DNA from: Parafannyhessea umbonata
Lineage (GTDB): Bacteria > Actinomycetota > Coriobacteriia > Coriobacteriales > Atopobiaceae
DNA: 64,000 nucleotides
Assembly: GCF_012844235.1 (NCBI RefSeq)
Contig: NZ_JABAGR010000006.1
Span: 124,001 to 188,000, forward strand
Direction: 5' to 3'
Below the pieces are notes generated by a model. It was given only the letters and a program-made list of their open reading frames with translations. It had not been told where the DNA came from and did not search any database. Positions within the stretch are counted from its first letter, which is position 1, and every line of letters begins with the position of its first letter. The position numbers were made by a program, and so were the translations under genes. Below, piece by piece: positions 22,743 through 26,753 of this stretch.

Positions 22743-25016
22743 CTACATGCGGTCGTGGCAGGTGCGCGCGATGACGTCGAGCTGCTGCTCGCGGGTGAGG
22801 TCGATGAACTTGACCGCGTAGCCGGAGACGCGGATCGTGAAGTTGGCGTACTCGGGCTTCTCGGGGTGCTCCATCGCGTCCTTTAGCTTGTCGACGCCGA
22901 AAACGTTCACGTTCAGGTGGTGGGCACCGGCGGCGAAGTAGCCGTCCATCACGTTGACGAGGTTGGCCTTGCGCTGCTCCAGGTCGTTGCCGAGCGCGCT
23001 GGGGTTGATGGTCTGCGTGTTGCTGATGCCGTCGAGCGCATACTCGTACGGGAGCTTGGCCACGGAGTTGAGGCTGGCGAGGAGGCCGTTCTTCTCTGCG
23101 CCGTACGCGGGGTTGGCGCCGGGCGCGAACGGCCTGAAGGCCTCGCGGCCGTCGGGCAGGGCGCCCGTGGCCTTGCCGTAGACCACGTTCGACGTGATGG
23201 TCAGGATCGAGGTGGTGGGCTCGGAGTTGCGGTAGGTGTGGTGCTTCCTGATCTTGGCCATGAAGGTCTTGAGCAGCCACACCGCGATGTCGTCCGCGCG
23301 GTCGTCGTCGTTGCCGTAGCGGGGGAAGTCGCCCTCGACCACGTAGTCGGTCACGAGACCGTCCTCGTTGCGGACGCACCTGACCTTCGCGTACTTGATG
23401 GCGGACAGCGAGTCGACCACGTGGCTGAAGCCCGCGATGCCCGTGGCGAACGTGCGGCGGACGTCGGTGTCGATGAGGGCCATCTCGGCGGCCTCGTAGT
23501 AGTACTTGTCGTGCATGTACTGGATGAGGTTCAGGATGTTGACGTACAGGCCGGAGAGCCAGTCCATCATGAGGTCGAACTTGTGCATGACCTCGTCGTA
23601 GTCGAGGTACTCGCTCGTGATCGGAGCGAGCTCGGGGCCGACCTGCATGTTCTTGCCGGTCTTCTTGTCCAGGAACTTCTCGTCCTTGCCGCCGTTGATG
23701 GCGTAGAGCAGGCACTTCGCCAGGTTGGCGCGCGCTCCGAAGAACTGCATCTCCTTGCCGGTCTGGGTCGCGGAGACGCAGCAGCAGATGCTGTAGTCGT
23801 CACCCCAGACGGGACGCATCACGTCGTCGTTTTCGTACTGGACGGAGGAGGTGTTGATGGAGACCTTCGCGGCGTAGCGGCGGAAGTTGAGGGGAAGGCG
23901 CTTGCTGTAGAGCACGGTGAGATTGGGCTCCGGCGCGGGTCCCATGTTCTCGAGCGTGTGCAGGAAGCGGTAGTCGTTCTTCGTGACCATGTGACGGCCA
24001 TCCTGGCCGAGACCGGCCATCTCGAGCGTCGCCCAGACGGGGTCGCCGGAGAAGAGCTCGTTGTAGCTGGGGATGCGCGCGAACTTGACCATGCGGAACT
24101 TGAGGACCATGTGGTCGACGAGCTCCTGGGCCTCGGACTCCGTCAGGGTTCCCGCAGCGAGGTCGCGCTCGATGTATATGTCCAGGAAGGTCGCGATGCG
24201 ACCGACGGACATGGCCGCGCCGTTCTGGGTCTTGATGGCTGCGAGGTAGCCGAAGTACAGCCACTGGAACGCCTCGTGTGCGTTGGTGGCGGGCTTCGAG
24301 ATGTCGAAGCCGTAGGTGGCGGCCATGTCCTTGATGCCCCTGAGGGAGCGAATCTGCTCGGCAATCTCCTCGCGCAGGCGGATGACGTCGTCGGTCATGG
24401 TGCCGTCGCCGCAGTTCAGGAGGTCCTCCTGCTTCTTGGCGATCAGGTAGTCGATGCCGTACAGGGCGACGCGGCGGTAGTCGCCGACGATGCGGCCGCG
24501 GCCATAGGTGTCGGGCAGGCCGGTCACGATGTGGGAGTGGCGGGCGTCGCGCATCTCGGGGGTGTACGCGTCGAACACGGCCTGGTTGTGGGTCTTGTGG
24601 TACTCGTTGAAGATCTTGTCGTACTTCGGGTCGATCTTGTAGCCGTAGCTCTCGGCGGCCTGCTGCGCCATCTTGATGCCGCCGTACGGCATGAACGCGC
24701 GCTTGAGGGGCTTGTCGGTCTGAAGGCCCACGACCTTCTCGAGGTCCTTCAGCTCGGGGTCGATGTAGCCCGGACCATATGCGGTGAGGCCGCTCACGAC
24801 CTCGGTCTCGCAGTCGAGGACGCCGCCGTTCGCGCGCTCCTGCGCCTGAAGCTCCTGGACCTTGCCCCAGAGCCTGTCCGTGGCCTCGGTGGGGCCGGCG
24901 AGGAAAGACTCGTCCCCGTCGTAGGGCGTGTAGTTCTGCTGGATGAAGTCGCGGACGTTCACGTCGGACGTCCAATGGCCTGCGGCGAAGCCGTTCCACT
25001 CTTCCCTAAGCTGCAT
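22743..25016 (-). CDS. pflB: formate C-acetyltransferase (pyruvate formate-lyase)
   Basis: 757-aa glycyl-radical enzyme converting pyruvate and CoA to acetyl-CoA and formate under anaerobiosis. The active-site cysteines lie in a CCC run at residues 411-413, within [11 protein letters not shown]. The radical glycine is Gly732 in RVSGYAV near the C-terminus. Length and N-terminus (WNGFAAGHW) match classical PFL, not a diol dehydratase or choline lyase. Strong ribosome site AGAGAGGAG. Its activase gene is 85 nt upstream on the same strand, so the two are presumably co-transcribed. Confidence 0.98.
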
Positions 25017-25101: not shown

Positions 25102-25839
25102 CTAGGAGGGGGCGCCCTCCGCCCCGAGGATGCGCCTTGCGTTCTGCACGCGCTCCGGGCTTGGCGGCTCGACGCCGTCTAGGGTGTACGGGATGCCGAG
25201 CTCCTTCCACTTGTAGGCACCGAGGGTGTGGTAGGGGAGGACCTCGACGCGCTCCACGTTCGAGAGTGTCCCGATGAACTCTGCGGTGCGCCTAAGGTAC
25301 GCGTCATCGTCCGTGATGCCGGGAACGAGCACGTGGCGTATCCAGACGGGCTTCGCGATGTCGCTCAGGTAGGTGAGGGCGTCGAGGATGTTGGCGTTGT
25401 CGTGGCCGGTCAGGCCCTTGTGGCCTGCCGGGTCGATGTGCTTGAGGTCCGCGAGCACGAGGTCGCACGACCCCATGAGGCGCTCGAACTTGCCGAAGAA
25501 GGGCTCGCTCCGGGTGAACGGCTGCAGGGCCGTGTCGAGGCAGGTGCCGATGCCCCGCTGCCTGGCCTTCTGGAAGAGCTCCGTCACGAAGTCGATCTGC
25601 AGAAGGGCCTCGCCGCCGCTCACGGTGATGCCACCGTCCTCGCCCCAGTAGCCGCGGTAGCGCTCCGCCTTGTCGAGGACCTCGTCCGCCGACATCTGCG
25701 TGCCCCCGTCCATGGCCCAGGTGTCGACGTTGTGGCAGTAGCGGCAGCGCATGGCGCAGCCCTGCAGGAAGACGAGGTAGCGCACGCCGGGGCCGTCGGC
25801 CGACCCAAACGACTCCAGTGAGTGGACCCTTCCGAGCAT
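25102..25839 (-). CDS. pflA: pyruvate formate-lyase activating enzyme
   Basis: 245-aa radical SAM enzyme that installs the glycyl radical on PFL using S-adenosylmethionine and a [4Fe-4S] cluster. The cluster motif is Cys28-x3-Cys32-x2-Cys35 (GCAMRCRYC), with GGEALLQ as the SAM-binding GGE motif. The start at 25839 is chosen because GGAGGAGG stands about 8 nt upstream. An in-frame ATG at 25881 would overlap the FNR-type promoter elements and lacks a ribosome site. It is upstream of pflB, the reverse of the E. coli order. Confidence 0.95.
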
Positions 25840-25864
25840 CCCCGTCGCCTCCTCCAGAAAATGT

Positions 25865-25878
25865 TTGTCGTTAGACAA
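25865..25878. promoter_or_regulatory. second Crp/Fnr-type half-site pair near pflA start of transcription
   Basis: TTGTC-GTTA-GACAA is a perfect 5-bp dyad with the N4 spacing used by Crp/Fnr regulators. It is centred at 25871.5, exactly 40 bp from the better FNR box, and overlaps the expected transcription start of pflA. Binding there would repress rather than activate. Confidence 0.45.
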
Positions 25879-25918
25879 CATATATGGGGGCGACGGAAAG
25901 TTCCTTGATTACAGTCAA
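25879..25918 (-). promoter_or_regulatory. FNR-type class II promoter of pflA-pflB
   Basis: On the plus strand, TTGATTACAGTCAA at 25905-25918 matches the FNR consensus TTGAT-N4-ATCAA except for one base, inside the longer dyad CTTGA...TCAAG. On the minus strand a TATATG -10 element (25884-25879) begins about 27.5 nt from its centre, within a base or two of the spacing for an FNR site near -41.5. An FNR-like regulator gene lies directly upstream. Confidence 0.7.
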
Positions 25919-26033
25919 GTAACGGAAAAATGTTTTTGCCTGAGATGGCGTGTGGAAAGTGATATGCAGAGCGGACTCGACTTTATGCAAATGGGAGCGC
26001 GCACGTCGGGGACATCCGCAGCAATGCCTGCGG

Positions 26034-26753
26034 CTATGCGTCGTCGCAGAGCCGGCGAAGCGCGACGTGGTCAAGCACGCGGATCTTGCCGCGACCGATG
26101 CGCTGCACCATGCCGTCGCGCTCGAACGAGCCGAGGGCGCGGCTGACGGTCTCCGGCCTGAGCCCCACGGAGTTCGCGATGTCGCCCAGGGTGAGGTGGA
26201 TCTCCGGGCCGATGCAGCGCTCGTCGCGCCACAGCAGAAACTTCGCCAGGCGGCGCCGAGGGTCCCTCGTGCTGAGGACCTTGATCTTCTCCTCCGCCTC
26301 CACGAGCTCCGTACCGAGGGTCTGGATAAGGCTCGTCGCGACCTCGCGGTTGTCGCCGATCAGCCGCATGAAGTCGGTGCGGCGGATGCGGCAGAGGTCG
26401 ACGCGGGTGAGGCAGCCGACGCTGTAGCGGTAGACGCTCTCCTTCAGGAACATGCCGTGCCAGATGGCCTGGCCGTCGTGCAGGATGTCCAGGAGGTACT
26501 CCTCGCCGTCCGCGTCCGCGTGGAACGTCTTGATGCGCCCATGGCGCACCACCAGGATCGACTCGATGGGGTCGCCCTCGCGAACCAGCAGGCTTCCCGC
26601 GGGGTGGGTGGAACGCAGCGCGTGCGCCATCAGGTCGTTGCGCGCGGACTCCGGTAGCCCCGCGAACAGGCGGATGCTCCCCATGCAGCTGCCGCCGCCC
26701 TCGCGAAAGGGACAGTCCATCGTCTCCTTGCACCGAGTCGGATCCTTGGCCAC
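26034..26753 (-). CDS. Crp/Fnr-family regulator, FNR-like
   Basis: 239-aa regulator with an N-terminal cyclic-nucleotide-binding-type beta barrel (about 28-140), a dimerisation helix and a C-terminal helix-turn-helix (LGDIANSVGLRPETVSRAL, about 189-207). Cys8, Cys14 and Cys23 near the N-terminus plus Cys114 or Cys121 resemble the four-cysteine arrangement of oxygen-sensing FNR, though spacing differs from E. coli. An iron-sulfur oxygen sensor is therefore possible. It sits just upstream of pflA-pflB, which carries a matching FNR box, so it is the likely anaerobic activator. Confidence 0.85.
   Translation of the reverse strand: MAKDPTRCKETMDCPFREGGGSCMGSIRLFAGLPESARNDLMAHALRSTHPAGSLLVREGDPIESILVVRHGRIKTFHADADGEEYLLDILHDGQAIWHGMFLKESVYRYSVGCLTRVDLCRIRRTDFMRLIGDNREVATSLIQTLGTELVEAEEKIKVLSTRDPRRRLAKFLLWRDERCIGPEIHLTLGDIANSVGLRPETVSRALGSFERDGMVQRIGRGKIRVLDHVALRRLCDDA

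Follow-up and report, generated by a model that had tools for sequence, protein, structure and literature searches.

The promoter of pflA in this stretch of DNA raises a simple question: does it need two palindromic boxes, and does the regulator encoded next door use both of them? The window, i.e., the whole stretch of 64,000 nucleotides analysed, belongs to a GC-rich Coriobacteriia chromosome, and its minus-strand genes follow each other in the order Crp/Fnr-type regulator, pflA, pflB. Parafannyhessea, Tractidigestivibacter, Olsenella, Olegusella and Atopobium come out as its closest named relatives, which points to Atopobiaceae. A sequence-only reading had taken the two boxes for Crp/Fnr-type sites, the one placed for activation by an FNR-like factor, the other for repression, be it by the same factor at higher occupancy or by a different family member. 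Both 14-bp dyads are present, at 25905-25918 and 25865-25878, with their centres exactly 40 bp apart. The features of interest are:

26034..26753, minus strand: gene of the FNR-type regulator (239 aa, start codon GTG), 194 nt ahead of pflA
25926..25938, minus strand: A/T-rich tract upstream of box 1 (in 28 promoters, A or T favoured at columns -13 to -9)
25900..25923, minus strand: dyad GTTACTTGACTGTAATCAAGGAAC, box 1 extended by its conserved flanks (28 promoters)
25905..25918, minus strand: box 1, predicted FNR-type operator, TTGATTACAGTCAA (minus strand TTGACTGTAATCAA), centre 25911.5, i.e., -41.5 from the deduced start
25877..25882, minus strand: TATGTT, the -10 hexamer, spaced 22 nt from box 1
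25870, minus strand: putative transcription start (+1), deduced from the -10 position
25865..25878, minus strand: box 2, dyad TTGTCGTTAGACAA (minus strand TTGTCTAACGACAA), centre 25871.5, spanning the putative start and sharing the final two bases of the -10 hexamer
25848..25855, minus strand: Shine-Dalgarno sequence GGAGGAGG of pflA, 8 nt before the ATG at 25839
25102..25839, minus strand: pflA, pyruvate formate-lyase-activating enzyme (TIGR02493, 288.5 bits, cut-off 231.75), ATG at 25839
22743..25016, minus strand: pflB, formate C-acetyltransferase (TIGR01255, 1151 bits, cut-off 994)

The open reading frame of pflA extends to 25881, but a start there is unlikely. The ATG at 25839 is preferred because the Shine-Dalgarno sequence lies ahead of it and because it aligns in relatives. 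Between 16906 and 34119 of the window, many long antisense reading frames run alongside the real genes, which is probably an effect of the high GC content.

The loose pattern TTG-N8-CAA is of little help. The window holds 5 matches where 5.0 are expected, and the genome 117, fewer than the 342 of the reversed control. The pattern alone was rejected as evidence. The significance of any box must come from relatives. We searched 140 genomes of the family and called a regulator carrier at E <= 1e-30. By this measure 30 genomes carry the regulator, and the identical 30 carry PflA with best E-values <= 4.4e-108. Nine further genomes have a distant PflA only (E about 1e-61 to 1e-65, 45-48% identity), and none of them has a regulator match at 1e-30; one of these, G005, shows a regulator-like match of 32% identity at a looser cut-off. 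Some oddities were seen on the way. At C2:153482-156602, genome G120 has another pflA, a more distant one (56%), with a regulator-like fragment (46%) close by. For L150 (G045) and L151 (G121), the regulator match runs across two frames, possibly because of gene decay or assembly errors.

When promoters identical over 150 nt are merged, the 30 genomes yield 28 distinct pflA promoters, L024 standing for G053. All 28 contain TTGAY-N4-RTCAA at 9/10 or 10/10 positions and all have the TTGA core; the window's box 1 fits 10/10. Among 5600 mononucleotide-shuffled promoters, a box of at least 9/10 turned up 131 times. The flanks are conserved too (counts out of 28: T22/T22/A24/C24 on one flank, G22/G28/A28/A26/C20 on the opposite one), and the consensus grows to GTTNCTTGAY-N4-RTCAAGNAAC. 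Beyond the family the box tends to go with the regulator. Where the locus also encodes a regulator homologue (33-48% identity), 11 of 14 pflA promoters have it at 10/10; where it does not, 3 of 49 do. Contig ends truncate several of these loci. In three of the outside loci (L032, L055, L075) a regulator-like gene of 33-37% identity is present and the box is absent. A genome from another family of the same order (G274, L215) repeats the gene order, the box and its 22-nt spacing. Being conserved far beyond chance, box 1 is, as a predicted site, a conserved FNR-type operator.

The spacing is as strict as the sequence. In 26 of the 28 family promoters a TANNNT hexamer follows box 1 at 22 nt, in the other two at 23 nt, and no such hexamer occurs at any other spacer between 15 and 30 nt. 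If the hexamer occupies -12 to -7, the centre of box 1 falls at -41.5, the class II position assigned to it beforehand. The TATATG proposed as -10 does lie between the boxes (25884-25879, minus strand), yet what the relatives keep is TATGTT at 25882-25877, 2 bp off. A search of the window's pflA promoter for a sigma-70 -35/-10 pair found none; a -10 without a -35 hexamer is what an activator-dependent promoter should look like. With an operator centred near -41.5 from the deduced start, a -10 and no good -35, the promoter matches the class II pattern, and the A/T-rich tract upstream of box 1 is a possible contact for the alpha subunit. According to the available part of PMC3688515, among 23 E. 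coli promoters that FNR activates and whose start is known, 19 carry the site near -41.5.

Box 2 behaves differently. It does overlap the predicted start, as had been supposed, the dyad at 25865-25878 spanning the putative +1 at 25870. Conservation in relatives had been proposed as a check for both boxes; while box 1 is found in 28 of 28 promoters, box 2 is absent from 26 of them and from all promoters outside the genus. A looser TTG-N8-CAA downstream of box 1 is seen in the window and in L139 only (2/28). On the other side, box 2 is a perfect dyad, and a perfect TTGNN-N4-NNCAA arises in only 0.085% of shuffles of the window promoter (any TTG-N8-CAA in 1.3%). The only same-genus relative with a pflA has kept 13 of its 14 positions, while the upstream spacer agrees at 60 of 94, and box 2 may thus be under some constraint. 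This is, of course, weak evidence, because the two species already agree at 81-87% of the third codon positions in pflA and the regulator gene.

Could box 2 be the operator of some other factor, restricted to this genus, that blocks initiation? The rarity of the perfect dyad and its preservation next to a diverged spacer speak for it, and so does the distribution of a second Crp/Fnr-type protein (L082 955-1719). All three genomes of the genus encode it, as do three further ones that lack the FNR-type regulator; of the 30 pfl-bearing genomes, the two that have box 2 are the only ones to encode it. Its gene, however, is preceded in 4 of 6 loci (L247, L248, L249, L251) by a dyad of its own, GTTGC-N4-GCAAC, possibly its operator. 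As this differs from TTGTC-N4-GACAA, the protein was rejected for box 2, which also speaks against the different family member of the sequence-only reading. Rex was dismissed likewise: its N-terminal domain PF06971 has 0 matches in the window's genome (G000, 99.94% complete), while the control found it in 7 of 14 known genomes. No further exact TTGTC-N4-GACAA exists in this genome and none at all in the other two of the genus. One genus, moreover, amounts to one evolutionary event, and in view of the high identity at third codon positions a separate factor at box 2 is unlikely.

As an aside, about 3.6 kb around the gene of the second Crp/Fnr-type protein are more than 99% identical between G000 and G002 (L247/L248), whereas pflA and the regulator gene of the same pair match at only 81-87% of their third codon positions. 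This uneven divergence perhaps reflects a recent exchange.

What, then, is the regulator? The gene had rightly been named an FNR-like neighbour of pflA. Its product matches PF00027 (54.1 bits, cut-off 27.5) and PF13545 (58.8 bits, cut-off 27); a cNMP-binding-like sensor domain, a Crp-type helix-turn-helix and the Crp/Fnr fold place it in the Crp/Fnr superfamily. The recognition helix reads ETVSR, and E201, T202, S204 and R205 are invariant in all 33 aligned regulators. By DNA recognition it would thus be FNR-type, with an ETxSR helix and, in box 1, a predicted operator of the TTGAT-N4-ATCAA kind. It is not an Fnr equivalog: the NCBIfam model PRK11161 yields 49.8 bits where 228 are demanded.

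The sensor domain would also suit a CRP-type protein that depends on a cyclic nucleotide, and by fold GlxR and the CRP of M. tuberculosis rank on top. CRP, however, has the recognition helix R-E-x-x-x-R and the site TGTGA-N6-TCACA, neither of which resembles ETVSR or TTGAY-N4-RTCAA, and the fold of A. fischeri FNR comes close behind (rank 11, TM 0.81). We therefore consider a CRP-type regulator improbable. In a sequence comparison with the PDB, DNR (3dkw) came out as the second best match. HcpR, DNR and other FNR-like regulators have the fold in common with the window's regulator, and their half-sites are TTGAY-like.

Knowing the sites, one can ask whether one regulator serves both, activating at box 1 and repressing at box 2 once occupancy rises. 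The geometry is inviting. A perfect dyad, box 2 lies 40 bp or about four helical turns from box 1, overlaps the start, and persists with one mismatch in the sole same-genus relative with pflA; in E. coli, FNR-repressed promoters can carry sites over +1, as the accessible text of PMC3688515 has it. The sequence does not follow. Neither half of box 2 has the TTGA core. A weight matrix trained on 26 other box-1 sites of the family gives 24.4 bits to box 1, 17-27 bits to box-1 sites (17.3 to the lowest training site) and 0.1 bits to box 2, which ranks 45th of the 63987 14-mers in the window. Together with the absence from 26 of 28 promoters and the restriction to one genus, this makes a second site of the same regulator very improbable; the label Crp/Fnr-type suits box 1 but not box 2. 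That box 2 works as a hairpin in the leader, where the dyad could form a 5-bp stem with a 4-nt loop, is next to inconceivable, because the -10 at 25882-25877 would set the transcript start near 25870, inside the dyad, and leave one arm untranscribed. Repression via box 2 by Crp/Fnr proteins is thus unlikely to judge from these motifs; most likely, box 2 is a genus-specific chance dyad in DNA that serves as -10, start and leader.

We are left with a reading that we regard as very probable: box 1 would be the operator of the adjoining FNR-type regulator, which would activate pflA-pflB in class II fashion, and box 2 would not be its site. Conservation, spacing, synteny, co-occurrence and the recognition helix come directly from the sequences; the start site, the binding, the direction of the effect and the oxygen signal are deduced. 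The active form of the regulator would most likely be the cluster-loaded one that prevails without oxygen. As a dimer it would bind GTTACTTGAC-TGTA-ATCAAGGAAC at -41.5 and recruit RNA polymerase, in the manner of class II activators, to a promoter with TATGTT as -10 and no -35. This would switch on pflA and pflB, which would be made together.

The signal deserves a comment. The window's regulator has the N-terminal cysteines C8, C14 and C23, spaced differently from those of E. coli FNR, and C121, which aligns with the internal cysteine of A. fischeri FNR. For the cysteines we compared 27 family regulators, the frame-split L150 and L151 and repeats from the same genome being left out. At least two N-terminal cysteines plus C121 are kept in 23 of the 27, and all of them are missing together in four: L139 (G034), L143 (G033), L148 (G041) and L149 (G042). 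C114, in turn, is invariant in 40 of 40 aligned regulators. The pairs G033/G034 and G041/G042 each share a genus with a cysteine-keeping member (G037 and G043, respectively) and therefore count as two joint losses. The alignment suggests that the N-terminal cysteines and C121 act as one unit, as cluster ligands would, that was dropped in two lineages. The cysteine-free lineages keep the box upstream of pflA. The structure model is uninformative on a cluster, its N terminus being of low confidence (pLDDT < 50 for residues 1-10). For the species of the window, the cysteine pattern makes oxygen sensing plausible. It is not a general trait, since 4 of 27 family regulators lack these cysteines.

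How many targets does such a regulator have? In the window's genome, exact TTGAY-N4-RTCAA occurs in three places, box 1, C8:14409 and C23:209827. The latter two share one 14-mer and lie in a duplication whose end, by eye, resembles the 3'-end of a tRNA, one of them beside an integrase-like frame. ARAGORN called no tRNA in either stretch. Neither place looks like a promoter, and both were set aside. The near-identical stretches (L094 and L095, about 1400-1620, on C8 and C23 of G000), with their tRNA-3'-end-like termini, may be the attachment-site pair of an integrated element. The stricter TTGAY-N4-RTCAA-N-GAA has matches in 27 of 140 genomes: in 21 of the 30 carriers at pflA, in two carriers only elsewhere and in 4 of the 110 non-carriers, where all matches lie inside reading frames of at least 150 aa. 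In G053 the extended box is also found upstream of adhE (C66; L165 1501-1522), uniquely among 28 adhE loci; the product matches Aldedh, and the name AdhE is our reading. The adhE control in carrier genomes thus gave a 10/10 box in 1 of 28 loci, besides a 9/10 box in L241, 300 nt upstream of the start, and adhE was rejected as a general second target. To judge from the sites found, the regulon would come close to a single operon, pflA-pflB. Tentatively, this would be an FNR-type regulator with essentially one target which, in G033/G034 and G041/G042, dropped the N-terminal cysteines and C121 and kept gene position, recognition helix and operator, so that pflAB would there be under a non-oxygen signal or under none.

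The architecture itself is that of a textbook FNR class II promoter. According to the excerpts available, an ETxSR helix reads TTGAT (PMC7349173), and the E. coli class II promoters of focA-pflB, dmsA and narG share with the window TTGAT-N4-ATCAA near -41.5, the ETxSR helix and pyruvate formate-lyase as a target (PMC3688515, PMC7349173). E. coli FNR is described there as a global regulator (PMC3688515), whereas the window's regulator adjoins its target and would serve about one operon; its system also differs in the extended half-site GTTNCTTGAY and in the PRK11161 score below cut-off. For the cld promoter of Ideonella dechloratans, class II was likewise deduced from an FNR box with weak -10 and -35, and there it is backed by reporter tests; the target is another one, and the FNR-type gene lies off the element that carries cld (PMC7349173, in part). 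HcpR and DNR control nitrogen-oxide genes, not pfl, as far as the accessible portion of PMC1274295 goes.

In the open-licence literature searched, no description of such a pfl switch in these families was found. As far as this literature shows, the novelty is a local, nearly one-operon FNR-type member in Atopobiaceae and the repeated loss of its cysteines. Box 2 teaches that, unless relatives are consulted, a neat palindrome in a single promoter can be misleading. That two lineages have lost C121 along with the N-terminal cysteines is a natural experiment on an FNR-type regulator without its likely cluster ligands. For the gut and oral Coriobacteriia, the locus would mean a switch of one FNR-type regulator and one operon for a main fermentation step, with a precisely spaced promoter that lends itself to direct testing.
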